Positions 1-32,507 of a stretch of 64,000 nucleotides of DNA are shown here, one piece after another. The notes under the pieces were generated by a model, which saw only the letters and a program-made list of their open reading frames with translations, did no database searches and had not been told where the DNA came from. Location: positions 124,001 to 188,000 of the forward strand of contig JAHDCU010000001.1 of assembly GCA_020629715.1 (NCBI GenBank). Reading direction: 5' to 3'. The translations under genes and the position numbers were made by a program. Numbering within the stretch: position 1 is the first letter of the stretch; every line of letters begins with the position of its first letter. The stretch comes from Saprospiraceae bacterium (GTDB lineage: Bacteria; Bacteroidota; Bacteroidia; Chitinophagales; Saprospiraceae).

Positions 1-3000
1 CTTACTTGGCACTACCTCGTATATTCCTCCCATTGCCATGCTCGGGAAGCTATACATCCCGATCGCACTCGTCGTATCTATAGTCGGTACTATTGTTCCC
101 TCTAGATCTACTGATACTGCCTCTACAGGTTCACTCTGTCTTGTGCTTACTTGTCCACTGATATTCAGCATCCCTTGTGCTGTGCAGATATCGACATCAT
201 TGTTGTCCTGTACCACCACAAAGGTCACACAGAAGTCTTGGTTGCCATTACTATCTGTCACCCATAGCTCGATCGCCTGCTGCCCTAGATCATTACAATC
301 AAAGATCACCTCTGTATCTGTCACATCTGCACTAAAGCTAAACGTCACTGGATAGCCACAGATATGATAGCTACTTCCATCAAAGCTACTCGCCTCCAAC
401 ATCACCATCTCCGCATCTGGTATGCCATCATTATTTAAATCCATCGCTACTAGCTCTGTACTCAAACCTTGGATACATACGGGTGTTGGATTCGTCGCAT
501 TCCGTACTTCAAATAGATAGTCTCCTAATACAATATTGCCACAGCCGTCTAATACTTCCCAGTAGATCCTGTGGATGCCGATTGGGTATGTGCCACTGGC
601 ATCATTGCCATTGTTACTGATATCTATACTGCCATCATTATTCGCATCGATCTCATATCTGATCGTTAGATCTTCTGTTGCGGTACAGTCATCCGTTGCT
701 GTCAGTACTAGGCTTACTTCTCCGTCTGCGCAGTTGGAATCAAAAGTCTCTACTACTACATCCGCTAGACTACTTGTAATCTGTGGTGCGATGCTATTCG
801 TCACTTTCAGCGTCTGCTGGTAGGTATATTGTGGAATTGTACCATCTGGATTACGTCTACACCAGTCGATTACTGTCCAGTCTCTCAATACTTTGAAACA
901 AGCATCTGTACCCGGTACGAAACCAAACTCTTGATCTACATAACTCATCGCCACCTGACTGCAGGCATCTCCTGTGTCTATGATCGGATACCCTACGCCT
1001 GGAGCTAGATTATCTGGATGTAGATCTTGCATTGTACATACATCATTATTGAATGTCATATCCGATGGCCAGTCACTTGCACTTGGACCCATATATGGGC
1101 TACTATCTTCAAACGTGATGCGTTGTGTACAGCTCATCGTTCCTCCTTGTCCATCTGGAATACTGATCGTTCGCTCTACTACTCCTAATCCACAGTTGTT
1201 TCGGTTATCTGCTACTACTTCCGTGATCGCATTCGCTGATGTACAGTTATCACTTACACTTGCATCTCCGAAGGTGATACTCATATTATTCGGATCGAAT
1301 ACGGTACCGCACTCTACGGTCATATCTGCTGGGCAACTGATGCTTGGTAGTTGCTTGTCCTGTACTTCTACACTGACCATACACTCATTATAATTGCCAC
1401 TCATATCATATACTCGGAAGATCACCATCTGTTCACTACCACCATCCGCACAACAGAAACTGACACTCTCTCCAAATACTAGATTATCTGCATCATTGCA
1501 ATTATCACTCATTCGTGCAATCTCAAAGCGGTCTATTCCACAATCATCAAAACTGCCTTGATCTACATCTATCGCATTCAAGATACCTACTCCTGCACTG
1601 TTCAGTGCTACTACCGTGTTGACTTGACAGATTGCGATCGGCTGGCTCTCATCCATCACCGTTACCGTCATCGTACAGCTGCTACTGTTGTAGCATTCAT
1701 CATAGGCAACATAGGTGATTACATTAGCTCCTGTACTTAGTACTACTGATCCGCCATTTTCATTATCTAAAAAGCCGCCTGGGTAGATTACATCGATCTC
1801 TACCTGTGCTGGATTACTTCCACTTAGGTTACATTGCTCTACTGCTGTAGCAGATGGTAAGCTTACCATCGCTTCGCATACATTCACTCCACTTGTACTT
1901 ACCGTCATATCGGATGGACAAGTAATGATTGGAGCGGTATTATCTTGTATCTGAATGATCTGAGCGCCCATCACGGTCATATCTGCATTGCAGTGCCATT
2001 CCCCTACTGTCCAAGTCCTTGTGATGGTTCTTACACAACCTACCGTACCGAGATCATTATCCTCATAGCTGACAAATCCATTGCAAAACTCCATCGGAAT
2101 ATCTGGGAATAGATCCGTACCTAAGTACGTCGGTACACCTGTTACACTCGGATCAGGATTACCATTCGCATCTACCGCATAGCCGCTTGTGCATTCTAAA
2201 GCTGTATTGCTTAACGCTTGGAAATTCATGCTTGGCATCACCACATCTCCTAGGTCGATACGCTCTAAGAAGATATTGAAACTACATACTTCACTTACAT
2301 TGCCTTGCGCATCTGTAGCTTGGTAGCTTCTTGTGATTCTTCTGATATAGTCTGGATCGCAACCCCCTAGATCATCGATCGTCTCATTCAACAAGGTCAA
2401 CGTATGGTCACCACAGTTTTCCATCACCGTAGGCTCTCCTACACTTGGTAGTGCCGTACAGGCTATCGTCATATCCGCTGGACAGTCAATCACAGGAGCA
2501 AACTTATCTTCTACCGTTACCTTACTCCAGCAACTGATATTGTCACATAGCGGTAAGGTCACCGTAATGAAAAACATTTCACCAATATCGGCGGCCGTAA
2601 ACGTACCGTCTACTCGGATATTACCATCCATATCTCGTATCTCTACTGTATACACGTAATCTGGATAGGTCGCTGGACTCAAGATCATACTCGGCGTAAA
2701 CGTCGTGCTACAATCCTCATCTAGACTGATATTGATCTCTGCATTACAGACAATCTCCTCACAGACTAATAACCATGCTTGATCGTGATCATCTTCATCT
2801 TCGCCTGCTCTTCCGTTTTCATCGATCTCATCATCGCTATCGCTATATGGCTCTAGACCATTATCATTGGTATTGTCATTATCATTGACACTATCAATAT
2901 CCAAGCCTGTACGGTCGTTGCCCATATCGTCCTCTGCACTTACTATCTCACTGTAGTTAATCAACTCTGATGGCTCTTCGCTAATCACCTCCAGCCATAT

Positions 3001-6000
3001 ACTAATCATCGCACAGTCGCCTACATTGATCACGGGCATATAGTCATACGTAGGATTCATAACATCCGTAGCATCCCAGCCCATATTCCGCGCATCAGCG
3101 ATATATTGTAAGCCTACTGGGATATAATCTACGATCGTAATATTAGACGCATTCTCTGTACCCTGATTGCAGATCTCAATCATAAACTCTACCTCATCAC
3201 CCATCTCGACCGGGACTAAAGCCGTAGTCTTGCGTAGGGCTAAATCGAAAATCGGCAAGGCTGCAGGATCATGGTCGTCTTCGTCCATGATGCCGTCGCC
3301 GTCAGTGTCACGTCCATCGTCATTAACCATATCATCGGTTGCATTGCTTGGATCTCCACCAGAGTCGTTTCCTTCATTTCCGTCTGGAGATGAATCAATA
3401 TCCATATTAGTCATATCCTCACCTGATCTATTATCTGCACCAAAAATTTCTGCAAAATTGGTTGTATTATCTAGACCTGCTCCAATCTGAACTTCTACTT
3501 CCATTTCTAATATCAGCGAATCCCCCGCTGCTAATAATCCTGCAAATGTTTTTTCATAAGATTTATCGATAACACGAGTCCAACCATTGGTATCTGTGCT
3601 ACTTAGTTCTAATGCCTCTGGTAGGTAGTCATACACTGTAATATTTGTTGCATCTATATTTCCTTGATTATAAATCTTGATCGTATGCGTTATAATATCA
3701 CCTGGAATGATAGGTGTCTGATCAATTCTATATTTAATCAAGGCAAGATCAAATATCGGAGGTTGAGCGGGGTCATGATCATCCTCATCTTCACCAGCAT
3801 TATTCTTTCCATTACCATCTACATAGTTATCATCAGAGGAATACAATTCTCCACCCTGATCATTATCAGGATCTGAATCTGCTGTACTATCGACATCTAA
3901 CAGAGTACGATCGATATCAAACTCGTCAAATGCAGAGCTAATTTCTGCGTAATTAATTAAGTTATCATAGTTAGCTCCTTGCTGAACCGTAAGCACAATT
4001 TCGATCGTAATCGAATCCAATATTGGAATTTCGTTGATCGTATACTCCGCATTATTAGCATCTATAGAGGTCCAGCCTATACTCGCAGGGCTCAAGGCAA
4101 ATCCAGCAGGTATATAATCCCTGACTTTCACATCCTTAGCCTGAATATTACCTTGATTATAAACCGTAATATCAAATTTTACATCATCACCTACTAATAC
4201 AGGATCAACATGATCAGTCGTCTTTTTGAGTGCTAAATCAAAAATCAAAATAGCTTCAAGATCGTGATCATCTTCATCTCTGATGCCATCTCCGTCTAAA
4301 TCTTGACCATCATCTAAAATATGATCATCGGAGTCCGTATTGAATTCCGCACCAGGATCATTATCAGGGTCCTGATCTGGCGTAGAATCGAAATCCATAG
4401 GCATGTTACCTTCAAGATCTTCAAAAGAGCTTATTTCAGCATAGTTGATATAATCCTCTAATACCATAAAAGGTCCTACTGTGAGCACTACTTCTACAGA
4501 AATACTATCACCTGCTGCCAAGGGATCTGAAAGTACCTTGGTCAACATAGAAGGATTGGTATCATCCCAAACATTAGGATCACTAGTGCTGTAACTTAGA
4601 CCGTTAGGCACGTAATCAGTGATTTCAATGTTTTGAAGCGGCATTGTACCTTGATTAAACACTGTAATTTTAAATCGTACGTCATCACCTACATTGATTA
4701 CGGTATAGTCAATTGCCAAAGTCTTTTTAAGTGCTAAATCTGCAAATGGAGGAAGCGCAATATCATGATCATCTTCATCACTATCAGAATTATCCGTGAT
4801 ATCATTTGATGGCACTCCATCATTATCTTCATCACTATCAGGAGTACTATCGATATCCTCAATATCATCACCATTTCCATCATGCGCATCTGCTATCTCA
4901 GCAGTATTGGTGTATGCTTCTCTAAAATCCGCATTATCTACCTGCTTTATAATCAATGAAATAGGAATAATCAAGGTATCCCCAGATGCTAATGCTCCAG
5001 CATGATTATAAGTTAGTGTAGCAGGCGCAGTAGCTGGACCTGACCAACCAGGATTTATACTATAATCAATATCATATCCTTGAGGAACATAATCAACTAC
5101 AGTAATATTACTGGCATCTATCGACCCTTGATTGATCACTAATATTTCATAATCAATAGCATCACCAAATACAAAGCCAGACATGGCATCTAGATTGGAA
5201 ATTCTCTTTATTGTAGCCAGATCAAAGAATTCTACTATCGCTGGATCATGGTCATCTTCATCGTCTGTACCATTGCCATCTACTTGATCATCTGTAGCTC
5301 CAGTTACTTCACCACCGCTATCGTTTTCGCTGTCATTATCTCCTGTGCTATCTGCATCAGTTTGTGGATTTCCATCAGCATCTTCGCCACCTGTGATCTC
5401 CGCTATATTAGTATAGTCCTCTGCTCCGTTAGCTTGCTCGAGACTCAATACAATATCTACTGAATCTACCATACCCGCTGGTATCACATTGCTAAATGTA
5501 TAAATCACTTCTGGGGCAGATGTATCGTCCCAATCACTATTCGCAGCAGCATCGAAACCTAATCCAGATGGGATGCTATCCGTCACTTCTACATTGTAGG
5601 CATCTACATTACCTTGATTATAGATGTATACTCTATACGTAAGATCATCGCCATATGAATATGGTCCTTCGGTTACTAGACTCTTTGTCAAGGCTAGATC
5701 GTAGATCTCGACCACTTCTGGATCGTGATCATCTTCATCACCATTGCTATTGTCCGTGGCATCATTTTCTGATGTTCCATCATTGGTACTGTCATCATCG
5801 GCTGTACTATCGATGTCTTCATCTGTCATGTCATTGCCATCCGTATCTTCACTGCTTGTGATCTCCGCTATATTCGTCCAGTTTCCTGCACTTCCATTCA
5901 GACATGCTTGTACTTCTAATTGGATACTTACTGTTGTACTTTCGCCACTAGCTAAGACTGTAGAAATGGTTGTCGTCGCTGAGCCTGTACCATCATATGT

Positions 6001-15298: not shown

Positions 15299-18200
15299 TT
15301 ATTTAATCTTTATCATCTTGATGGTTTGACTTCTACCATCTTCGAGCTTTAGCTCAACATATGTCATACCATCGTAATCGAAATCTGATTTTTCAATAAT
15401 TATACTATTGATTCCTCTATTACTCCTTCTTGACTCATTGTAGAGAAGTTTTCCAGTGAGGTCATAAATAGTGATTTCTGCTGTTTGAGACTTCTCAATG
15501 TAAAACTCAATAGTCGTAACTTCATTCCAAGGGTTAGGCTCGTTTTGATATAGTATGAAGTCTCCTTCGATATTTTCAAATTTCTCAAGGTTGAGAGATC
15601 CTATTTCAAAATTATTCAAATAGATCTCAGGCTTGAAATTAGAATCATCTAAAATATCAATACTAGATCTGTCTATCACTTGACTTGAAGATATAGAGAA
15701 CAGTTCTTCTCCTTTCTCCACATTGATCAACTCAACATCATTAATACTGATAATAATTTCGGAATTTTCAACGTAAATATTAGCGGGAGTAACTTCAAAT
15801 AGTTCCGATGAAATCTGAATATCTGCCAATTCTTGAGCCGAATAAAGTTTGAGCTGCATACCATAAGCTGCTACACTTTCATCAATAGTGAACGAAACAC
15901 TATACTCTTCTGATTGCTCCATTTTGATAGGAATAATTTTACCATTTCGAGATGTAACAGATTCTTCTTGCATACTTGGACTAGTCCAACTACTATTGAC
16001 ATCTCCGATTTTTACTCCAACAAAGTCGGCGGTTATACTATTAGAAAGTAATGGCACCTCAACTACTTGATTATATGGTTGCTCCAATGGACTAATATCC
16101 GAATTGAACACAAAGGAATGATCTATCATTTTCCAAGAAGTATTATTCGGGAATTCCGCTATTGCACCCATGATTACTTTTCTAAGTTCAATAATATCTG
16201 CAGCAGAAATATGCTCAGAGTTATTGACATCACCTGCAATATACTCATATGGTCTATCCAGTAAATCAATACCAAGTATATGGCGCTGAAGTATAATCAG
16301 ATCTAATGTAGATAGACCCTGATCATGTGGTGTATCCATATTTGGAATAATATTGTATGATCCACCAGAGAACATTGATGGGAATGCATAATAACCTTCC
16401 AAATCAACATTAATGATAGGAAGATTACTCCCTTCTAGATTAACTTCACTGCCTATCAAAGCATTTCCAGAGACTGATTCGATATACCCATCCACAATAT
16501 TTGGTGGAGAAGTACAAAGTCCATCAGGATCTTCAAGTGTATAACCAGTCTTACATCTAAAGAAATTACCGCTTTGATCAAATACTACCACGTATATATC
16601 TTGTATGGGGGTTAGATCATCACAGCCTAATATAATATTTGGAAATAATGTAGTAGGAGGAACATTTTCATCATTAAATGGCTCTGTAAAGAAGAATTGA
16701 AAATCTCCTTCAACGGTGCAATTATCAGTTAATTCACATACAAACTCAGTCGGTACGATTGTGAAATCGCCTTGATCTGTAATATCATAAAATGCCTTTT
16801 TACACTCAAAAGAAGGTTTTTCAGTATCTGCTAAGACTGTCAAGGTGAATGTTTCGCTAGTTTCTAAACCACATACATCTACCGCTGTAACTGTAATATC
16901 GTAAACGCCAGCTGGATAAGTGCCACTAGCATCAGCAGTATCATTGGAATCAGCAAATGGACTATTATTTGAGCTACTTGCTAATCTACATTCCATAATC
17001 TGAGTCTCTAGATTAATAAATCCAAGAGGGCAATCTACAGTCAAATCATCGGGAACGACTAATACTGGTGCCGCATCATCGACAACGACTACCGCTTGAT
17101 CAAATGTAAATACACCAGCATCATCAATAGAGTTTAACTGGCAGGAATCGATGACGGTCCATCTTCTTGAAAGAGTATCAGCACTACAAGTTATTGTTTC
17201 ATTAATGATTTCTTGACTTATCGAAATTCTAGAACAATCTAAATCTGAATCATCCACTAGTACCATACCAGGTAGTGTAGACAGGTCCAAATCCGTACAC
17301 GGATCGATAAATATAGTATCCATTGGGAACGTAATATCTGTCTCTACAAGTGGATTATCTCCCGTCTCAATGGTAATAAATTGACTACATTGAAATGACT
17401 GATTGGTCGTAGGATTAGTAGCTGTAAAAGTTCTAATAATTGTACCAACGTCACATGCATTGAGATCCATCGTTACACTTTCTTCAATCACTAGCTGATT
17501 ACAAGCATTGACTACGGTAGGTTGCCCAAAAATACTAAGATCTGAAATATCCGAACCACAAGGTATCGTCACATTGGCTGGGCAATTTAATGACTCAGTT
17601 TCAACTACAGTTACCTGAACCTCGCATGATACTTGATTATCAGTACCATTACTGACGGTAACCATGACATTGTTATCACCGAGATCTTCGCAACCAAATG
17701 TACTCTGTGATAGAGAAATCGTAACTGGGTTACCACAAGAAGTCGCACTACCGTTATCAATATCTGATGATGATACTGTGACCATCCCAGCATCTCCTAA
17801 TTCTACCGTGATATCAGCTACTGAACATACAGGCGTTGAAATATCGACAACTGTAATTGTTGCTTGACAAGTCGTCACATTATTACCATTATCTGTAACG
17901 GTAACGGTAATCAAGTTATCTCCAATATCAGTACAATTTAGAGAAGTGATATCACTAGTAGTGGATACAATCTGACCACATGGATCCATCGTACCATTAT
18001 CCAGTGCAGATAAGTCAATTACAAAAGTTTCATTTTCATCGATACTGACTGTAATATCCTGAAGCATACATATTGGTGCTTGATCATCAACTACTGTCAC
18101 CGTTGCGGTACATGTGGAAGTTGACCCATTACTATCATCTGTTACTGTTAAGGTCACTATGTTTTCTCCAATATCATTACAAGCAAAAAAGTCTGGCTCT

Positions 18201-21200
18201 ATAGAAAACGAAACGTCATCTGAGCACCCTGCTGTACTACCATTATCAATATCTGATGCCGAAATATTTGCTTGGCCATTTTCATCGAGATTTACTGTAA
18301 TATCTTGTACCATACATATTGGTAAAGAAATATCTTCTAAGGTAACCGTCGCTGTACAGCTTGTAGTGTTACCACTATCATCTGTAACCGTAACTGTAAT
18401 CAAATTATCACCAAGATTTTCGCAAGATAAAGTAGCTGGTATCGCTTCGAAAGAAACGATCGAACCACAATCATCGAATGATCCATTATCTAAATCTGAT
18501 GCTACAATATTAGCAGTATCATTAGCATCTATACTTATGGTGATATCCTGGAGAATACAAGTGGGCGCAGTATTATCTACAACAGTGACTGTTGCTGAAC
18601 AGTTAGTGGTATTTCCACTGAGATCAGAAACCGTTACGCTGATTATATTATCACCAATATCTGTACAATCAAAGCTATCTTCACTTAAGATGAAACTTAG
18701 ATCATTATCATCGCCACATGCATCACTAGAACCATTATTAAGCATTGTTCCAGTTATAGATGTAGAACCTCCTTCGCTCACTTGTACTGTAATATCTTGT
18801 AGTTGACATACAGGAGCTACATCATCTGTAATCGTAACTTCAGCGGTACAAACCGTTGTGTTGCCGCTGATATCTGTCACAGTAATATTCACAGTATTTA
18901 AACCAATGTTATCACAATTAAATGTACTTGGTTCTACCATAAGGACAACTGCATCATCGGTACATGCATCTACAGAACCATTATTGAATTGATCTCCAGT
19001 AATAATCGCACTATTATTATCAAGTTGCACCGTAATATCTGCAACATTACATATTGGACCTGTAATATCATTTACTGTGATATCAACAGAACAAGTAGAA
19101 CTATTACCACACATATCTGATACAGTGTAAACTACAGTTGTAGTCCCAACTGGGTATGTACCCGAAGCACTTCCATTATTGGAATCTGCAAAATCAGAAT
19201 TATTAGTCACCGTAAAACTGGATATACAATCTGTATTTACAGAAGGGACATCTAATTGGACTGAAGCACTACATGTACCAACAGCAGCATCTACCGCAAC
19301 ACTTGATGGACAATCAATTATAGGTGTAGTAGTATTAAACAAGGCTATATTTTGATCAAACGTACAGACAAGTGGAAGATTACCACAATTGAATGTCACA
19401 GACCATGTACGTGTTATATTCGTACATCCATTACTACTATCTGTATTAGTCACGTCATTGAAGTCAATATCGAAATCACCACAAATACAATTAGGATCAA
19501 CCGTAAGCATACTTCCTAATGCAGCTGGAGATAGAACAGTATTGCAGGCCGTCACTTGAATATCAGAAGGTGGCATTATACAATCCTTAGGATCTATACA
19601 TACATTTACATCATTATTATCTTGTACATCCACTGTAGTAGAGCAAAAAGATGTATTTCCATTTGCATCTGTAACCCATAACTCAACGGTTTGAGGACCA
19701 AGGTCTAGACAGGTAAATGTTATTTTATCATCATCCACATCTGATGAAAAACTTAGATTGATAGGCGTATCGCAAGAGTGATAGCTACCTGCATCTACAT
19801 TTTCTACATAAAGACATGCTTGTTCCTCATCTGGGACTCCGTCGCCATCGAGATCTACTGGCTCAAGTGCAATACTTATACCATCGATACAATATGCAGT
19901 AGGTGTTTTACAACTCAATACAGTGAAACTCTGAGTACATGCATTTACATTTCCACATGCATCTTCAAAACTCCAGATTATACTATGAGTCCCGATTGGA
20001 TAATTTGCACTAGCGGATACTGTAGATGATGAACCCGAAACAGTAATTAAATCTTCACCATCACTAAATTCATCTAATACATATGTCCAGTTTAATAAAT
20101 TTCCTGGAGTACAATCATCTGTAGCAGACATGGTAAGGTCTACAAAAGCAGGACCACAATTTACATCAAAACTACATGTCTCAATTGCATCGCAATTACC
20201 TGTAAGCGTAGGAGCTTGATTATTACTTATTTTTATTATCTGATCATAGCTTTGAGTCAATCCATTTTGACACCAATCAATCACTGACCATTTTCTTAAT
20301 ATTTTTAAACATGCATCCGTATCAGGTACAAATTCAAATACTTGATCTGTATATGCATAGCTAGTGAGATCACATGCATCCTCAGAAAGGATAGGAAAAC
20401 CGTTTTCTGTAGGAAGGTTTTGAGGATCTAGTGAATTTCCTAAACATTCAGTTACAGTCTCATAATCTTCAGGCCAATCGATATCCATATGAAAATCAAA
20501 TGGGTCATTGTTAATAATTGTAATCGTCTGGGTACAATTAGAGAAGCCGTTAGCATCACTTGCTTGAAACTCTCTGGTAATAGTACCTACCCTACATTGA
20601 GATATATCAGAAGTGATTAATTCTCTCATCTGTACTTGACATGCGTCTGTAGCAGTAGCTACTCCAAATTCTGAAAGATCATTTAAATCATAAACATAAT
20701 GGCAATCTATCGTCACATCTGCTGGACATGTAATGACGGGTGCAAACTTATCTTGCACCTGAACATTGACCATACAATCATTAAAATTGCCTTGTACATC
20801 ATATGCACGGAGTACTACGACAATGGTATTGCCAACATCAGCACAGCAAAATCTAACAGATTCACCGAAATCGGTGATAGCATCTCCGCAAGATGCACCC
20901 TCATCCATTCTAAATACCTCTAGTCTATCTAAGCTACAATCATCAAACGAACCCTCATCAAAACTCTGCGCAAAGACAGTTGCTTCACCAGTTTGATTAA
21001 TGCTCACGACAGTCTCTTGATTACAAATAGTCACTGGAGCTGTCTCATCTACAACAGTTACCGTAAATGAACAACTTGAAGAATTATGACATTCATCGTA
21101 TGCCGTATAAGTAATTGTATTTATCCCAGAAGATAATGTAACGGCACCACCGTTAGCATTATCAATAAATCCATCAGGATAGGTGATATCGACAACAATA

Positions 21201-24200
21201 TCTTCTTTATCCGAACAAATATCATACAAATCAGCACTCGGTAAGACTACTGAAGCAGTACATGATACTCCTCCTGAAGCTACTGTCATATCTGCTGGAC
21301 AAATTATTTCTGGCTCTGTATCATCTTGAACCTCAATTGTCTGCATATATGTGATTGGAAGATTATTACTACAAGTCCATTCAAAAATGGTCCAAGTTCT
21401 AACTATTTTTCTTACACAATTAGACATCAAAATTTCCTCGTCATTATATACTGCCACTACACTACATGCCTCCGCAAATGTTGGATATAGAGGCATACCG
21501 TCTAATGAAGGAGTACCTGTTACGAAAGTAGATGGTCCTCCATTTTCATCAAATGGATATTCACCACATTGAAGATTAGTATCATCAGAAACCATAAAGT
21601 TATCTGGGTACACAATAGTCGAAATATCCAATCTCTCCACTGTTATATTCTGAGTACAGATTGCGGATTGGTTTCCGAAATTATCTGTAGCTTGATACTC
21701 TCTAGTTATTAATTTTACATTATCGGGATCACAGTCCAATGGACTAATCACCTCTGAAAGCAACGTCACGGTAGGAGAAGAATCACAATTATCAATAGCT
21801 AGTGGACCTTCATAAGTAAGCATATCATTACATGATATTGTGATATCCTCACATACAATACTTGGTGCAATCTTATCTTCAAGTGTAACGGTACTCCAAC
21901 AAGAATTACCACTACAACCATCCATGACCTTTGCCATAATAGGAGTCCATAAATGTTCAGAAGTTAAAGTTGCGTTGGGTATAATTTCTCCATTGCCATC
22001 CATTAACACTACAGCATATGCTGCAACTGGATTAAGAGGACTAGTCAATAACATTTCAGGGGTTATCTCTACCTCACAGTTTTGACTTGCAGAAATATTG
22101 ATAGAACCTATACATGCTAGTGCAGAGGTTCCACTTCCTACCGCAACCGTTGATGATACAGGAGCAAGGCATGAGCCAGCTAATGTAACAACAAGTTCTA
22201 CAGAGTAATCACCATTTGTTGTACCCCAAGCCACATCTATACTTGCACCTGTAGAGGCTCCAACTATTGTACCTCCAGCGGATACTGTCCATGAATATGT
22301 AGCACCTGAAATTTCTGAAGTACTATATGTCTCCGTACCCCCACCACATACGGCTAATGCCCCGTCTATATCGGGATCTGTATACGAAGGAGGATTAGCT
22401 TGACCATTTAAGGTTTCGAAACGACCCTGACCATCCGTTAATGTTATGGTATATCCTTGTGCATCGATATGTATTCCGTCTAAAATATAAGATGAGACAC
22501 CGTTACCTAGAACTGTTTCAGTCATATTGGCTCCCGCAGCACCTGTTACAAAAGCAACTGGATTTGCAGGTGGTGCAGGACTTGTTGAATCAAATAACCC
22601 ATTCACTTGAAATATATACCATGTCTCTCCAGACGCTGATACTATTTCAATTCTATCCAAGAATTGACCGTCTGTTGCATTTGATGCATTACCTAAACAC
22701 TCGTTTTCAATAATCAGACTGCCTTCAACAATTATTACTCTTGCAGGATCATGATCATCTTCATCAACAGTACCATCATCGGTAATATTATTATCATTAC
22801 TTGATCCTGCTTCTCCCCCAGTATCATTATCTGGATTATCATCAGCTGTCGAGTCACGATCATCATTGGATCGATCATTACCATTATTATCTTCAGCAGA
22901 TACTATTTCAGCTATGTTGATGAGTTCTGTGCTAGTGACATCAGCTTCAATATTAACTGTAATATCGACACTATATACCTCTTGACTAGATAGACCTCCA
23001 GGTACATTGACTAAAAAACTAGCTATCCCCGTACTTGGATCACCATTCAGATAGGACCAATCGTCGTCTGCCAAAGTCATCCCAGTAGGTAGATAATCAT
23101 AAATTGTAATATTATTGGCTGTAACTGACCCTTGATTTACCACATTGATTGTAAATGTAACTTGCTCACCTGGTGAAACAGTCTCGGTTGAAATAGTCTT
23201 GAATAAAGCTAAATCAAAATAATCGATACGGAGTAAAGCAGGATCATGATCGTCCTCATCTGTTATTCCATAATCGTCAATCTTATTGTCGGTAATACTA
23301 TTAGGTTGTCCTCCAATATCATTTGTAATATCTCTATCAGGCTTAGAGTCAAAGTCTTTGCTCAAAGGATTACCTTCGGCTCTAGACATACTGATTTCTG
23401 CATAGTTTATGATATCACCTGACTCATGATTATCCGATATCTTTAGTATGATCTCGTGACTTCTACTTTCTCCTGGTAATAATCTATCCGTATTTGTTAA
23501 AATAATTTCTGAGTTGGATTGAGCAATCCAATCAGCATCATTTTTAGCAGCATCAAAGATCAGTTCTGTTGGAACATAATCAATAATCTCGTATTCCGAA
23601 GCTATTTCTGATCCTTGATTATAAACTGTGATAATGTATGGAACGTCATCACCAGCTTGATAGACAGCTTGTGGAAATTTTAATTCCTTTCTCAATGCTA
23701 AATCAAGTATCAAGACTCTTTCAGGATCATGGTCATCTTCGTCTATCGTACCATTGCCATCTAAAACATCATCGCTGTTCGGTGCATTAGGAACACCACC
23801 TGCATCATTATTACGATCTTCATCTGGTGTTGAATCCATATCGTCACCTGAAAGACCGGTGGAGACATCTACCGCACCACTAATTTCTGCGACATTGATG
23901 TAGTTTAATGTTGGACTAGCTTCCACTAAAAGGTGAACGTATATGGAAGTGTACTCACCTGGTAGCAATTGTTCATCGATATTATATTTTAGAATTCCAT
24001 CTCTTTCTTTCCAGTTGGGGTTGATATCATCTATCCATGAATATCCACTTACTAAGTAATCCACTACGGAGATATCAGTTGCCGCCGCTGTCCCTTGATT
24101 ATGGATCTGAATTTCGAAGGTTGCTGTATCACCTAAAGAAACTAAAGGATCACCTTGTAATAATTTAATGAGGGCTAGATCAAATGATGGTAATGAAACA

Positions 24201-26269
24201 GGGCAAAGTCCTATATCATAACTATGATTTACGGGATCAGCATCGGATACAACAACGTCCATTTGTGGTGTAACAATATTTCCATTGCACGAACTCAACA
24301 AAGATAAATCCGAATCATTTTCATCAGCCTGTACTCCTGTACCAAAATTAGTAGAACAAATTTCAAATTGATCAGTACCAACACGTACACGATTTTCATT
24401 AATTAAAAATTGGCTATCATGTACGACGATGGTGTATGTTACATCTGATCTTAGACCATCGAATGATCCATCTAAATTAGAATCTACATTAGAATTATTG
24501 AAAAAGTATTGTCCTGATGAATTAGAAATCGTAGTACCTACAACTTGACAATCATCATTTACAAGATTTATGATTAAACCTGAAATTACATCTTCATCTG
24601 CATCCTGAATACCATTACTATTTTCATCAAACCAAACATAGTTTCCAATTTCTTTCGGAGGTTTTGGACAGATAGATACGATGTCTCCAAAACCAGTAGC
24701 TTTGCCCAATTGAAGATCAATATTATGAGTATAAAGCTGTATAGCGTCAAGCTTTCTTCCATTTATGGTGCTATATCTATGTAATCCTCCAGAGTAAGTA
24801 TCATAAATCGGATCATATACAGATGCTACAACTTCCGAAGTTCCGGGTAAAACGAATATACTTCCCAAAGCTAATTCCGGGTGATAATTTGGCCCTGCTA
24901 ACCAATAATCATCACCAAAAAATTCACCTCCTCCGGGTCCTTGGGTATTTCCAACACCAGATCCAGTCAGAGAACCTGCACTACCGTTGCTCTCTAGTGT
25001 CCACGTTCCATTATTATCCCAAGCAACAAGAAGATCAGGATTTTGAAAGTCCACACGATTGAGAGCATTATCACAATAGATATGACCTACCCTATCAGAA
25101 AGTGAGATAAGCATATTTCCCTCTTCAGTAAAATCTATATCGGTTAACCAATGCATAGGTTTTTCACCATCAGAAGGTGTATCGTACCAAAAACCCTTAA
25201 TATAATTGGTAGAAAATATTTCTGTAAATACTTTAGAATTAGGGTCAAACTCATAAACTATTGCTCTTGAATCATTTTGATCTTGTGAGTTTTCAGCCGT
25301 ACACGTTGTTCCTAAATATATTTTACCGTCGTACATCTTTAAAGCAAAAGGTATATAATCACCTCCGACACATCCAGGATTTGGTGTGGCTATTGATTCG
25401 GTTGTACTCACATTGGGATTATCAATATTGATCTTTACTAAAGTTTTTTCTTTGAGGTTTATTGTGTATAGATACTCGTCATTAGGACCAACCACTAGTG
25501 AGCCCAATCCCATTCGACCCACTTGTTTACCATATTGACAATCTTGTATATCACCAACTGGCTCACCGACATCAATACCTAAATCGCTCAGAGTTACCCA
25601 AGTTTCAGTTATTGGCGTATTGCCGAGGGTAGTTCTGAATATAGCTCCTGCACCATCTGCAGTCAAACTGGTATGTTGTTTTACAAAAGCTGATGAAAAT
25701 ATCTGTGACCTTCTATCATCCCATGCGATTCCCCAGATACTACCCGTCTGTGACTTCATAGCTAATTTCTGTGGACTTGTAGCTGTATTGAACTGATGAT
25801 CGAGCTGTATGATTGTTTCTATATTATCATTTTCACCCTGCTGACCTTGAACAAAACAGGTTAGTACAATCTGCGGATTTTCACCACAAGACGATGCCTT
25901 GGATCTCAGCCCCAAATTGATATCGCATGAAGGCGCTTCTACGAATTGCACTTTTGTACCGTTATCAGCAGAATATACAGTGCTAGTTTGATCGCTAGTA
26001 AAATCAAATTCTACTCGATAATCCTCTCCGTTAGAGAGTCCAAAAATGGAATAAACTCCGTCACTACTAGTAATATCGGAACCAGCTAGATTATTGGATG
26101 AATCATAAGCCTTAACCATAATATTACCTTGAAAAGTATTATCATCATTAAAACCATTGCCATCTTGATCTAGATAAACAACTCCAGAAATTGAATTAGG
26201 GAGAGCGTTGCATTGGGAATGAGCTGTGTAACCCATAAAACCAATAAACATGATGAGCAGAATAGACAT
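15299..26269 (-). CDS. Giant T9SS-secreted surface protein with SdrD-like, DUF11, HYR-like, dockerin-like modules
   Basis: The protein is 3656 residues from the ATG at 26269; a longer frame starts at ATG 26326. I prefer 26269 because MSILLIMFIGFMGYTAHSQ is a typical signal peptide and the extra 19 codons cover a palindrome. Order along the protein: an SdrD B-like module; a segment resembling a beta-propeller (about 25900-24720); a second SdrD B-like module (GNYVWFDENSNGIQDADED); three DUF11 units ending in DEDDHDP (near 23740, 23250, 22750); many HYR-like modules including an array of six (17600-19070); a dockerin-like segment with paired Asp-rich loops (AGDVNNSEHISAADIIELRK, near 16200); and a type A T9SS sorting domain in the last 85 residues (NEPNPWNEVTTIEFYI, YDLTGKLLY). 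It is expected to be exported by T9SS and anchored at or released from the cell surface. It is clearly paralogous to the giant gene at 1-14922. Its function as adhesin or matrix protein is inferred. Confidence 0.92.
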   Translation of the reverse strand: MSILLIMFIGFMGYTAHSQCNALPNSISGVVYLDQDGNGFNDDNTFQGNIMVKAYDSSNNLAGSDITSSDGVYSIFGLSNGEDYRVEFDFTSDQTSTVYSADNGTKVQFVEAPSCDINLGLRSKASSCGENPQIVLTCFVQGQQGENDNIETIIQLDHQFNTATSPQKLAMKSQTGSIWGIAWDDRRSQIFSSAFVKQHTSLTADGAGAIFRTTLGNTPITETWVTLSDLGIDVGEPVGDIQDCQYGKQVGRMGLGSLVVGPNDEYLYTINLKEKTLVKINIDNPNVSTTESIATPNPGCVGGDYIPFALKMYDGKIYLGTTCTAENSQDQNDSRAIVYEFDPNSKVFTEIFSTNYIKGFWYDTPSDGEKPMHWLTDIDFTEEGNMLISLSDRVGHIYCDNALNRVDFQNPDLLVAWDNNGTWTLESNGSAGSLTGSGVGNTQGPGGGEFFGDDYWLAGPNYHPELALGSIFVLPGTSEVVASVYDPIYDTYSGGLHRYSTINGRKLDAIQLYTHNIDLQLGKATGFGDIVSICPKPPKEIGNYVWFDENSNGIQDADEDVISGLIINLVNDDCQVVGTTISNSSGQYFFNNSNVDSNLDGSFDGLRSDVTYTIVVHDSQFLINENRVRVGTDQFEICSTNFGTGVQADENDSDLSLLSSCNGNIVTPQMDVVVSDADPVNHSYDIGLCPVSLPSFDLALIKLLQGDPLVSLGDTATFEIQIHNQGTAAATDISVVDYLVSGYSWIDDINPNWKERDGILKYNIDEQLLPGEYTSIYVHLLVEASPTLNYINVAEISGAVDVSTGLSGDDMDSTPDEDRNNDAGGVPNAPNSDDVLDGNGTIDEDDHDPERVLILDLALRKELKFPQAVYQAGDDVPYIITVYNQGSEIASEYEIIDYVPTELIFDAAKNDADWIAQSNSEIILTNTDRLLPGESRSHEIILKISDNHESGDIINYAEISMSRAEGNPLSKDFDSKPDRDITNDIGGQPNSITDNKIDDYGITDEDDHDPALLRIDYFDLALFKTISTETVSPGEQVTFTINVVNQGSVTANNITIYDYLPTGMTLADDDWSYLNGDPSTGIASFLVNVPGGLSSQEVYSVDITVNIEADVTSTELINIAEIVSAEDNNGNDRSNDDRDSTADDNPDNDTGGEAGSSNDNNITDDGTVDEDDHDPARVIIVEGSLIIENECLGNASNATDGQFLDRIEIVSASGETWYIFQVNGLFDSTSPAPPANPVAFVTGAAGANMTETVLGNGVSSYILDGIHIDAQGYTITLTDGQGRFETLNGQANPPSYTDPDIDGALAVCGGGTETYSTSEISGATYSWTVSAGGTIVGASTGASIDVAWGTTNGDYSVELVVTLAGSCLAPVSSTVAVGSGTSALACIGSINISASQNCEVEITPEMLLTSPLNPVAAYAVVLMDGNGEIIPNATLTSEHLWTPIMAKVMDGCSGNSCWSTVTLEDKIAPSIVCEDITISCNDMLTYEGPLAIDNCDSSPTVTLLSEVISPLDCDPDNVKLITREYQATDNFGNQSAICTQNITVERLDISTIVYPDNFMVSDDTNLQCGEYPFDENGGPSTFVTGTPSLDGMPLYPTFAEACSVVAVYNDEEILMSNCVRKIVRTWTIFEWTCSNNLPITYMQTIEVQDDTEPEIICPADMTVASGGVSCTASVVLPSADLYDICSDKEDIVVDITYPDGFIDNANGGAVTLSSGINTITYTAYDECHNSSSCSFTVTVVDETAPVTICNQETVVSINQTGEATVFAQSFDEGSFDDCSLDRLEVFRMDEGASCGDAITDFGESVRFCCADVGNTIVVVLRAYDVQGNFNDCMVNVQVQDKFAPVITCPADVTIDCHYVYDLNDLSEFGVATATDACQVQMRELITSDISQCRVGTITREFQASDANGFSNCTQTITIINNDPFDFHMDIDWPEDYETVTECLGNSLDPQNLPTENGFPILSEDACDLTSYAYTDQVFEFVPDTDACLKILRKWSVIDWCQNGLTQSYDQIIKISNNQAPTLTGNCDAIETCSFDVNCGPAFVDLTMSATDDCTPGNLLNWTYVLDEFSDGEDLITVSGSSSTVSASANYPIGTHSIIWSFEDACGNVNACTQSFTVLSCKTPTAYCIDGISIALEPVDLDGDGVPDEEQACLYVENVDAGSYHSCDTPINLSFSSDVDDDKITFTCLDLGPQTVELWVTDANGNTSFCSTTVDVQDNNDVNVCIDPKDCIMPPSDIQVTACNTVLSPAALGSMLTVDPNCICGDFDIDFNDVTNTDSSNGCTNITRTWSVTFNCGNLPLVCTFDQNIALFNTTTPIIDCPSSVAVDAAVGTCSASVQLDVPSVNTDCISSFTVTNNSDFADSNNGSASGTYPVGTTTVVYTVSDMCGNSSTCSVDITVNDITGPICNVADITVQLDNNSAIITGDQFNNGSVDACTDDAVVLMVEPSTFNCDNIGLNTVNITVTDISGNTTVCTAEVTITDDVAPVCQLQDITVQVSEGGSTSITGTMLNNGSSDACGDDNDLSFILSEDSFDCTDIGDNIISVTVSDLSGNTTNCSATVTVVDNTAPTCILQDITISIDANDTANIVASDLDNGSFDDCGSIVSFEAIPATLSCENLGDNLITVTVTDDSGNTTSCTATVTLEDISLPICMVQDITVNLDENGQANISASDIDNGSTAGCSDDVSFSIEPDFFACNDIGENIVTLTVTDDSNGSTSTCTATVTVVDDQAPICMLQDITVSIDENETFVIDLSALDNGTMDPCGQIVSTTSDITSLNCTDIGDNLITVTVTDNGNNVTTCQATITVVDISTPVCSVADITVELGDAGMVTVSSSDIDNGSATSCGNPVTISLSQSTFGCEDLGDNNVMVTVSNGTDNQVSCEVQVTVVETESLNCPANVTIPCGSDISDLSIFGQPTVVNACNQLVIEESVTMDLNACDVGTIIRTFTATNPTTNQSFQCSQFITIETGDNPLVETDITFPMDTIFIDPCTDLDLSTLPGMVLVDDSDLDCSRISISQEIINETITCSADTLSRRWTVIDSCQLNSIDDAGVFTFDQAVVVVDDAAPVLVVPDDLTVDCPLGFINLETQIMECRLASSSNNSPFADSNDTADASGTYPAGVYDITVTAVDVCGLETSETFTLTVLADTEKPSFECKKAFYDITDQGDFTIVPTEFVCELTDNCTVEGDFQFFFTEPFNDENVPPTTLFPNIILGCDDLTPIQDIYVVVFDQSGNFFRCKTGYTLEDPDGLCTSPPNIVDGYIESVSGNALIGSEVNLEGSNLPIINVDLEGYYAFPSMFSGGSYNIIPNMDTPHDQGLSTLDLIILQRHILGIDLLDRPYEYIAGDVNNSEHISAADIIELRKVIMGAIAEFPNNTSWKMIDHSFVFNSDISPLEQPYNQVVEVPLLSNSITADFVGVKIGDVNSSWTSPSMQEESVTSRNGKIIPIKMEQSEEYSVSFTIDESVAAYGMQLKLYSAQELADIQISSELFEVTPANIYVENSEIIISINDVELINVEKGEELFSISSSQVIDRSSIDILDDSNFKPEIYLNNFEIGSLNLEKFENIEGDFILYQNEPNPWNEVTTIEFYIEKSQTAEITIYDLTGKLLYNESRRSNRGINSIIIEKSDFDYDGMTYVELKLEDGRSQTIKMIKIK
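17600..19070 (-). repeat. Array of six HYR-like repeats of about 82 residues
   Basis: Six consecutive modules of about 245 bp each open with a C-x-x-x-DITV-type motif (for example VCQLQDITVQV, TCILQDITISI, ICMVQDITVNL) and contain a central DNGS motif and a closing TVTDxSGNTTxCxATVTV motif. Each has conserved Cys residues. The copies are diverged at the DNA level, unlike the 948-bp repeat in the neighbouring giant gene, so this array is older. Confidence 0.8.
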
Positions 26270-26283
26270 TCTGCATACATAAT

Positions 26284-26305
26284 TACGTACGAGTACTCGT
26301 ACGTA
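26284..26305. repeat. 22-bp perfect palindrome just upstream of the giant gene start
   Basis: The sequence TACGTACGAGTACTCGTACGTA is its own reverse complement with no loop, centred between 26294 and 26295. It lies 15-36 bases upstream of the preferred ATG (26269) and inside the coding region if the ATG at 26326 is used. It could be an operator, or form a hairpin in the leader next to the ribosome-binding region. No homologue was identified. Confidence 0.75.
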
Positions 26306-26455
26306 TGACGTAAGTATTGTAGTCATAGTGACCTTAGCTTTGTGTACTAAAATGTAAAATCGGTATCAAGGGGTATTCGTCAACCTTGACAAATGTTACT
26401 GTTTTGGATGTAGTAGTTTTCTTATGGAACCGGGGAAAGATTCCACACTATAATT

Positions 26456-30063: not shown

Positions 30064-30346
30064 GCGCTCTGCTCAATTTTAGAAACTCAAAATTACATAA
30101 AAGAAAATAATTATACACAAATTGCTTAAAACCATGTGAGTACATATTTATTTCTGGGTAATCATACGTGAATTGGAAAAATTAGATTTGAACTATATTC
30201 TAGTATATTAAATCCCTAAAAAACTACTTTAGTAATTTTTTAACTTGCCTTAACATTGCAGAAACTATTAATACGCAGCTATACTCTTAGCTTCACCGTT
30301 ACTATATTGTACTTTAATTGCCATAAAGGTATTTATAACTGGTATC

Positions 30347-30910
30347 ATGGAATTTGTCTTAGACGTTCATAATCAGGAAAAGGATTTTATAAAAGCATGT
30401 GCAAATCAAGAACGATGGGCGCAGCAAAAGTTATATGAAGATTTTTATCCGAGTCTAATGCCTGTTTGCCTGCGATACGCCAACAATGAAAACGATAGTT
30501 TTGACATCCTCCACGAGGCTTTTATAAAAATCTTTAGAAATATTCATAAATATCAGTCTGGGACTTCTTTAAAAGCATGGATCAAAAGAATCGTAGTCAA
30601 TACAGCAATCGATTATTACAGAAAAAATGCCAGACGTCGAACTCAAAATATCGAAACTGCGTATTCTGTTTATGATGACTCCGTTGATGCCGTTTCCCAT
30701 ATGTCAGCAAAAGAAATCATGGCATGCCTACAGCAACTTACCCCAGCGTATAGAACTGTTTTTAACCTTTATGTAATAGAAGGATATTCTCATAAGGAAG
30801 TGGCAATAGCGATGGGAATCACAGAAAGTACATCTAGATCTAATTTGGTAAAAGCCCGAAGTAAATTACGAATACTGCTAAAAGCTAAGAGCATTGAATA
30901 TGGATCATAA
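30347..30910 (+). CDS. ECF RNA polymerase sigma factor
   Basis: The 187-residue protein is an extracytoplasmic-function sigma-70 factor. Region 2 spans about residues 25-95 (LYEDFYPSLMPVCLRYA, DSFDILHEAFIKIF). Region 4 spans about 125-180, with the helix-turn-helix YSHKEVAIAMGITESTSRSN. The next gene starts 11 bases before this stop codon in another frame, a sign of translational coupling, and encodes a membrane protein with an anti-sigma-like cytoplasmic part. The pair is likely a regulatory unit responding to envelope signals. Target genes are not apparent from the sequence. Confidence 0.92.
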   Translation: MEFVLDVHNQEKDFIKACANQERWAQQKLYEDFYPSLMPVCLRYANNENDSFDILHEAFIKIFRNIHKYQSGTSLKAWIKRIVVNTAIDYYRKNARRRTQNIETAYSVYDDSVDAVSHMSAKEIMACLQQLTPAYRTVFNLYVIEGYSHKEVAIAMGITESTSRSNLVKARSKLRILLKAKSIEYGS

Positions 30911-32507
30911 ATCCTTTGATCAATATATAAAACAACAATTGGAACAGCTCAGTGCCGATCCAACATCAAGCCGATGGGAATCATTGGCTTCTCGTATTGA
31001 TGAGCAGCTTGGAAGTGATTACACCTCTATTGAGGATAATAATTTGGATCAAGCCATTCGCCAAGAGCTTCGCAAAGATGGTATCCCATTACCAAAAAAT
31101 CGGTGGCCTAAATTGGCTGATAAGATTGATAATTACATATCCGTAGATCGTACTAGCAGAGCGGATGCTACTTTAGATCAAAACCTAAAAGAATCTCTGA
31201 TAAACACTGATATACCATTTCAAAATCGATGGGAATCTTTAGAGCAAAAATTGATCGAAAGCCAAAAACGCCGACGAAAGTTGATTTTTATAAAAATCAC
31301 AGAATTAGCTATTTTATTGTTATTATTTTCAGCACTCTATAACGCTGGGCTATTCGATGGTAACCCCTACGGCAATACTAATGCATCAAATAGTACTACT
31401 CAAAATGGAATAACTGCTGTTCCGTTAGTCGACGTACTTACAGATGAATCAAACTCTACCTCATTATTATCCAATAATATTTTAGATTGTGACCAACACC
31501 TAAGCTGTAGTGTGGGTCTAAAAGACACAGGAAAATCATTTGGGAATGATATAATATCAAATAGAATATTACAAGATACTCGTAAGGTACTAAATATTGC
31601 TCCCATAGATAAAAATAGAATTCAGATTGGGAACAGCTTGCCTAAGATAAAAGCTTCTATAAAGCCCCGTATTTCTAAAAAAATGGCTTCGCTGAAACTT
31701 GAAAATAGAAATATAATTGATTTAGAAGTAACTCCGTTTAGCAAGAAACCATATGTGCCTCTCATTTCAGAAACTAGAAAACTTAGTGTATCTGATGTGG
31801 TTTCCATAGATAATTCAGACAAGTATCAAAAAGCAAAATGGTGGATAAATAGCTTTGGCGCTTTAGATCTCAACTTGATTAATTCACCTTTTGACTTCGT
31901 ATATGAGTCATCGGCCTATCTTATCGAAGATTTAGGTTTGTCAGGAGGTTTAAGTTTATCTTATGATACAAAGCTTGCAGAATTAGAATTAGGATTTTTA
32001 TACTCTGAAAAAAATTACGTTCCAAGAAGAATTGGAGAAATAACAGGAAGTTTTAGTGCAGGATACAGACGTACAAGTCTCGAAGAAATAAAGTATACCA
32101 TAGCAAGTATTCCAATAAACCTAAAACTACATGCTAATCGAAGAGGTAAGTGGTCATATTATGCAGCGATAGGTGCCTCAGCCAATCTTATTTTAAATAG
32201 TCATTTTGACATTCAAAACGAAATATTAGATACACCCGCTTTTGGAGCTGATGGTGCAGTAGCTAATCAACCAAAACTTCAGAATAAGCCATTTGAGGAA
32301 GGTATTGTAGAGGGCGGAAGCTGGACTGATAACACCTTTTTCACAACTCAAGTAGGTCTCGGAGTACAACGGGTATTGTCTAAAAACATAAGCGCTTATG
32401 TCCAGCCCAGCTATAGCTATCACATGTTTGATCAAGGTGTTGGGCCTAACAAGGATTTTTTGCATACACTATCACTTCAACTAGGAGTAAAAGTGGCAAT
32501 TAATTAG
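30900..32507 (+). CDS. Anti-sigma-like membrane protein fused to an outer-membrane beta-barrel domain
   Basis: The 535-residue frame is read from the ATG at 30900; a TTG six bases upstream is less likely. Residues 1-125 contain three related modules of about 45 residues, each with a D-Q-x-[IL]-[KR] start and an RW-x-x-L end (SSRWESLASRI, KNRWPKLADKI, QNRWESLEQKL). A basic stretch and one transmembrane segment follow (about 128-147, IFIKITELAILLLLFSALYN). A low-complexity linker leads to a C-terminal region (about 310-535) with alternating beta strands typical of outer-membrane beta-barrel proteins. Overlap with the ECF sigma gene suggests that the N-terminus binds the sigma factor. Similar sigma-linked fusions are known in Bacteroidota; the threefold N-terminal repeat is what I see here. 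The function is inferred. Confidence 0.78.
   Translation: MDHKSFDQYIKQQLEQLSADPTSSRWESLASRIDEQLGSDYTSIEDNNLDQAIRQELRKDGIPLPKNRWPKLADKIDNYISVDRTSRADATLDQNLKESLINTDIPFQNRWESLEQKLIESQKRRRKLIFIKITELAILLLLFSALYNAGLFDGNPYGNTNASNSTTQNGITAVPLVDVLTDESNSTSLLSNNILDCDQHLSCSVGLKDTGKSFGNDIISNRILQDTRKVLNIAPIDKNRIQIGNSLPKIKASIKPRISKKMASLKLENRNIIDLEVTPFSKKPYVPLISETRKLSVSDVVSIDNSDKYQKAKWWINSFGALDLNLINSPFDFVYESSAYLIEDLGLSGGLSLSYDTKLAELELGFLYSEKNYVPRRIGEITGSFSAGYRRTSLEEIKYTIASIPINLKLHANRRGKWSYYAAIGASANLILNSHFDIQNEILDTPAFGADGAVANQPKLQNKPFEEGIVEGGSWTDNTFFTTQVGLGVQRVLSKNISAYVQPSYSYHMFDQGVGPNKDFLHTLSLQLGVKVAIN

Follow-up and report, generated by a model that had tools for sequence, protein, structure and literature searches.

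An ECF sigma factor of Saprospiraceae and its barrel-ended, anti-sigma-like partner with an N-terminal module array of variable copy number

Introduction

The gene pair considered here has its closest described counterparts in Dma1/Dma2 of B. thetaiotaomicron and in EcfO-Reo of Phocaeicola vulgatus and Bacteroides fragilis. For Dma1 and Dma2, the published account describes an ECF neighbour, an N-terminal anti-sigma part, one membrane helix, a long disordered tether and a C-terminal beta-barrel (PMC13088901). In EcfO-Reo the sigma gene is followed by the gene of a large, periplasm-spanning anti-sigma protein which ends in an outer-membrane barrel. According to the parts of these reports available to us, toxins that damage the outer membrane induce the system, among them a bacteriocin that targets BamA, and NigD lipoproteins belong to its regulon (PMC9308784, PMC13114119).

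At the level of single domains, CnrY of Cupriavidus metallidurans is assigned to class II and is described as two helices in less than 50 aa, which bind sigma regions 4 and 2. The same survey, from 2020, places a class I anti-sigma domain near only 6% of Bacteroidetes ECF factors (PMC7406223).

Here we describe a pair of genes from the window, by which we mean the whole stretch of 64,000 nucleotides of a Saprospiraceae genome that was analysed. With a probability of roughly 0.6, we consider it to be an autoregulated, envelope-sensing ECF sigma and anti-sigma pair of the Dma/Reo kind, likened to these systems by their described plan, in which the repeated N-terminal modules of the partner would be sigma-binding units and their array would set how much sigma factor can be held.

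The sigma gene and its partner

The two genes overlap by 11 bases (Table 1). In the sigma open reading frame Pfam identified Sigma70_r2 at residues 29-97 and Sigma70_r4_2 at residues 123-174, both above the cut-off; NCBIfam gave general sigma matches only, of which sigma70-ECF alone exceeded its cut-off. For the partner gene, the ATG at 30900 was preferred over the TTG at 30894 of the mechanical ORF list, and the frame that follows is free of internal stops.

Table 1. Features of the sigma/partner locus; positions are those of the window.
Feature	Residues	Position	Strand	Basis
ECF-type promoter of the sigma gene, GCAGC-N17-CGTT		30275-30300	+	dyad conserved upstream of orthologues
ECF sigma factor, 187 aa		30347-30910	+	Pfam regions 2 and 4; orthologue profile A2
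Partner protein (anti-sigma-like), 535 aa		30900-32507	+	
Module 1, helices 5-15 and 25-36	1-36	30900-31007	+	held-out profile, model
Module 2, helices 46-59 and 69-80	47-78	31038-31133	+	held-out profile, model
Module 3, helix 87-102 and a second helix merging into the membrane helix	90-121	31167-31262	+	held-out profile, model
Membrane helix	127-149	31278-31346	+	hydropathy; helix 110-148 in model
Disordered periplasmic tether	158-306	31371-31817	+	pLDDT about 40; changes fastest in close pairs
OmpA-type outer-membrane beta-barrel	313-533	31836-32498	+	pLDDT mostly 90-98; Foldseek; VIA-align

The AlphaFold model of the partner, built from 54 orthologues, contains three helix pairs, one membrane helix, a disordered stretch and a well-modelled barrel; the confidence of the module blocks is modest, with block means of 53-78. 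Foldseek matched the barrel to NspA, OmpA, OmpX and OprF, and VIA-align to NspA, OmpA, OprF and OmpW with Z of 16-19. The profile libraries recognised the barrel only, and below their cut-offs, in Pfam (OMP_b-brl_2, E 7.7e-4, 20 bits against 27) as well as in NCBIfam. Pfam gave no match to a class I anti-sigma domain in the partner, and the search of the PDB with the whole partner alignment returned chance-like matches only. The original prediction, made from the letters of the window, had joined a sigma factor to a membrane-spanning partner with an outer-membrane-type barrel at its end. Pfam, the AlphaFold model, Foldseek and VIA-align bear this out, and the two parts of the partner, which a frameshift might have separated, lie in a single frame here and in the orthologues.

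Elsewhere in the window, a second ECF sigma gene (L144; 63242-63784, plus strand) lies at the right end and precedes the gene of a 432-aa protein which has a membrane helix but lacks the module. On the minus strand, positions 15299-26326 form one open frame of 3675 aa.

The repeated module

The module spans about 37 aa and two helices; its sequence follows the pattern F/L-D-x2-I/L-K/R-x2-L-x10-12-W-x2-L/M/F-x2-K/R-L/I-D/E, in which D and W are almost invariant. The three RW-x-x-L modules pointed out from the window alone proved to be real when examined with a held-out profile, and RW-x-x-L is the second half, or core, of this larger unit.

The orthologue set consisted of 137 proteins, reduced to 114 by the removal of copies with identical last 200 residues and of proteins shorter than 380 aa. 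When proteins were scored with a profile derived from the half to which they did not belong, at least two modules were detected at 3 bits in 108 of the 114 orthologues, against 13 single and no double matches in 570 shuffled N-termini; this held-out test guards against over-fitting, not against the initial choice of the seed segments, which were picked by the W motif.

Two predicted helices in less than 50 aa correspond to the size of a class II (CnrY-like) domain, at modest pLDDT. At about 37 aa and two predicted helices, the module falls outside class I, whose domains have four helices and at least 50 aa. Compared with PDB chains, the module profile matched no anti-sigma protein, CnrY included; the best match, at E 4.5e-5, was a designed TIM barrel over 16 positions and was judged to be due to chance.

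Occurrence of the pair in Saprospiraceae

The named records closest to the window in sigma sequence place its genome in Saprospiraceae. A search with the single partner sequence (E <= 0.001) found it in 55 of 100 related genomes, namely in 55 of the 61 that belong to the family of the window; the 39 genomes from the order's remaining families gave no match. An ECF sigma gene lay directly upstream of the partner in 54 of these 55 loci, the exception (L058) beginning at a contig end. All 86 loci of another, overlapping set also had the pair. Here 83 loci were recognised by an automatic rule and three by reading; of the three, one had an assembly gap, one a longer spacing and one a contig end, and the module was present in each of them. 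The neighbourhood is partly kept: a topoisomerase subunit gene is in reach in 47 of the 86 loci and smpB in 19, many of the flanks being short. The sigma profile itself matched at E <= 1e-55 in 281 of 298 Saprospiraceae genomes, among which some of the weakest matches (about 1e-55 to 1e-62) may be paralogues.

No natural fusion of sigma and anti-sigma was found. Two orthologous sigma genes lie inside far longer open frames, of 524 aa (L246:2640-4214, minus strand) and 376 aa (L247:1620-2750, plus strand), and both loci retain a separate module-bearing partner.

Module number and its evolution

How does the number of modules vary among orthologues? At 3 bits, the 114 proteins carried one module (6 proteins), two (55), three (34), four (12), five (3), seven (1), eight (2) or ten (1). 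The threefold N-terminal repeat expected from the window is real; three is one state within a copy-number series which runs from 1 to 10. Among named species, the profile found two modules in Lewinella cohaerens, four in Portibacter lacus, five in P. marinus and four in Flavilitoribacter nigricans. The start of the membrane helix shifts by about 37 residues per extra module, up to four modules, and the length behind the helix is constant (coefficient of variation 0.06 against 0.46 in the 114 orthologues). Read by eye, the longest arrays repeat regularly every 30-45 aa as far as the membrane helix, and their inner modules score lower. A model of one long array (L227) had a mean pLDDT of 41.5 and was uninterpretable except for repeated helix pairs.

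On a tree built from the 114 sigma proteins, module number requires no fewer than 34 changes, a count that is rough because only 27 of the 111 inner branches are strongly supported. Shuffling gave a mean of 51 changes, so copy number is also inherited. Within the genus, three modules are found in the window and in its close relative L060, and two in a third member, L039. Tree neighbours one module apart include F. nigricans (L084/L242) with its four and L217 with three, L211 with four and L197 with three, and L190 with four and L178 with three. Tandem Repeats Finder detected a period of 114 bases in L227, of 111 in L242 and of 120 in L211, the copies matching at 81-91%, and some arrays thus show tandem duplication at the DNA level; the same program found no such repeat in the window's own array.

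In all 36 close pairs listed, every module had fewer amino-acid than silent differences per site; between L223 and L237, for example, all seven aligned modules had 0.01-0.06 amino-acid differences against 0.11-0.36 silent ones. Strong evidence of selection comes from the closest pairs only, because pairs further apart have almost saturated silent sites. These sequence comparisons indicate that the modules are under purifying selection. Strictness varies along the protein: in several pairs the inner modules are often less strictly kept than the first and the last, the tether is kept least strictly, and the D and W positions are retained in the inner modules too. Between close pairs, silent differences are often fewer in module 1 (30900-31007 in the window, and in orthologues) than in the remainder of the gene; a possible reason is that this module begins within the sigma gene.

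What might the number of modules set? Two modules are the commonest state, and conservation is highest in the first and last modules, which differ from each other in sequence, H preceding W in 65% of the last ones. Such a distribution would suit a clamp, in which at least two modules jointly grip one sigma factor and the array raises affinity rather than capacity. However, six of the 114 orthologues have a single module, and seven to ten modules far exceed what one sigma factor of about 190 aa would need, which makes the clamp a somewhat unlikely explanation. It is also conceivable that only the first or the membrane-proximal module binds sigma, the others being spacers or drifting duplicates. 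This would agree with the weaker conservation of inner modules in several pairs, with their lower scores in the longest arrays and with the single module that serves most relatives outside the family. But inner modules keep D and W and have fewer amino-acid than silent differences, which speaks against this view, and we hold a single binding module to be unlikely. In our judgement, sigma-holding capacity is preferable to a clamp or to spare copies: a clamp on a single sigma factor would hardly account for seven to ten units, and the inner units are kept. We consider it most likely that each module is a small unit that binds sigma and that the array sets this capacity.

Units outside the family and other sigma genes

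In other families the unit is mostly single and stands before the membrane helix of a protein that adjoins an ECF sigma gene, often with a remaining part of barrel size. In a class-wide sample, 125 of 246 genomes had a unit match at E <= 0.05. Arrays of four to about eight units were found in family f71 (L386, L390, L392-L394) and of four or five units in family f80 (L384, L385, L387-L389, L391), and L157 of family f29 has two units in tandem. The single-unit form is thus common and the array looks derived; the sigma tree cannot tell gain from loss. In family f20, L159:1795-2679 (minus strand) encodes an anti-sigma-like protein of 294 aa with about four tandem units before the membrane helix, beside a sigma gene at 2701-3363. 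This protein is too short for the same barrel plan.

The genome of the window has 29 ECF-like matches, and its three modules are only 26-32% identical to each other. Both facts would be compatible with different modules holding different ECF sigma factors of the same cell. In that case the number of modules might be expected to grow with the number of close sigma paralogues, yet it does not rise with them (Spearman -0.22, p 0.12, 51 genomes). Moreover, many other sigma genes of this genome have an adjoining membrane-helix protein of their own: two have a one-module partner by profile (L117/L161, 422 aa; L118/L160, 214 aa), and several more partners with the W motif and a membrane helix were recognised by eye. 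A division of modules among sigma factors is therefore highly improbable. Module number was not correlated with genome size either (Spearman -0.08, p 0.60).

Promoter and candidate regulon

The usual ECF promoter consists of a -35-like element, 16-17 bases and a -10 element containing CGT. The dyad CAGC-N17-CGTT stands before the sigma gene in 81 of 112 loci, and the best of any dyad in five shuffles reached 11. When a longer upstream stretch was used, the gap was 17 in 88 and 16-18 in 96 of 114 loci, at a median of 86 bases before the start. This conserved, predicted ECF-type promoter implies autoregulation of the pair, which would fit the behaviour of ecfO, induced under stress along with the system to which it belongs.

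Across the whole genome the promoter pattern showed no clear enrichment, with 8 matches against 5 for the reversed pattern in the genome of the window and 3 against 5 in the sister genome. A stricter pattern gave 50 matches against 17 reversed in 60 Saprospiraceae genomes; among the 30 of these matches that were examined, ten lay before the sigma gene, two before bamA and one before ftsH. The window's own site, with C in front of GCAGC, is missed by a pattern that demands A or G at that position.

Upstream of bamA in 57 genomes, three sites exceeded 12 bits, two of which had prompted the search, against none on the other strand and one on the reversed sequence. The looser pattern CA[AG]C-N16-18-CGTT occurred before bamA in 14 of the 57 genomes (9 CAAC, 5 CAGC), the reversed control giving 3 and 0. 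We treat bamA as a lead for a possible regulon member, and ftsH likewise. In L297 and L298 the sites before bamA equal the sigma gene's own promoter in quality. The genome of the window and its sister (L327, L328) share a weaker site, 52 bases before bamA.

Proposed mechanism

Judging from the Dma/Reo relatives, the cytoplasmic part of the partner would hold the sigma factor inactive, and the barrel, embedded in the outer membrane at the far end of the tether, would report the state of that membrane. The sigma factor would then be freed when the outer membrane or barrel assembly is disturbed, and would transcribe its own operon too. The induction of ecfO-reo by a bacteriocin that targets BamA fits a sensor which would itself be a client of barrel assembly. 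The anatomy of the partner suggests further steps. Each module may act as a small class II (CnrY-like) sigma-binding unit that places its first helix on region 4 and its second on region 2. Through the array, one anti-sigma molecule may carry more than one sigma factor, in which case copy number would set both capacity and threshold. The original prediction had suggested that three such modules could give a graded response.

The threshold of a sigma/anti-sigma pair is usually discussed as a matter of affinity and expression ratio. The orthologues of the partner form a natural series in which a discrete unit count goes from one to about ten and the rest is constant, so the relation of anti-sigma valence to dose response becomes directly testable. 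The module also provides a minimal unit for a cytoplasmic domain of the Dma/Reo kind.

A wider proposal, which we offer only tentatively, is that the array of 1-10 units is a multivalent sponge for sigma factor. Duplication or loss of a unit of 111-120 bases might then reset the capacity, threshold and sharpness of the outer-membrane stress response and leave the sensor, the sigma factor and the promoter untouched, and such arrays might have arisen several times in Bacteroidota.

Comparison with known systems

By the published description, the gene order and domain plan of Dma1 and Dma2 are the same as those of the window pair; one N-terminal anti-sigma domain is described there, whereas the window protein has three modules and its orthologues have 1 to 10 (PMC13088901). 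EcfO-Reo, which is tied to outer-membrane stress, also has the same plan by description; the parts of those reports available to us give a NigD regulon and mention no repeat, in contrast to the three modules of the window partner (PMC9308784, PMC13114119). A one-component envelope sensor of this plan had been called unusual in the original prediction, a view that does not hold, since the plan is already found in Dma1/Dma2 and EcfO-Reo (PMC13088901, PMC9308784, PMC13114119).

The barrel of the window protein has the same fold as the OmpA-type barrels NspA, OmpA, OprF and OmpW, at 9-16% identity, and differs from them in being tethered to an inner-membrane helix and a cytoplasmic array. CnrY lies next to a membrane helix, in a single copy, and is not known to carry a barrel. 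The module is similar to CnrY in size and in its two helices, and the same wrapping of the sigma factor is proposed for it (PMC7406223); in sequence it differs, having no detectable match in the PDB. In the open-access literature, which misses most subscription journals, we found no description of a repeated sigma-binding unit. The overall plan is known from Dma/Reo, and the module array of variable copy number looks new.
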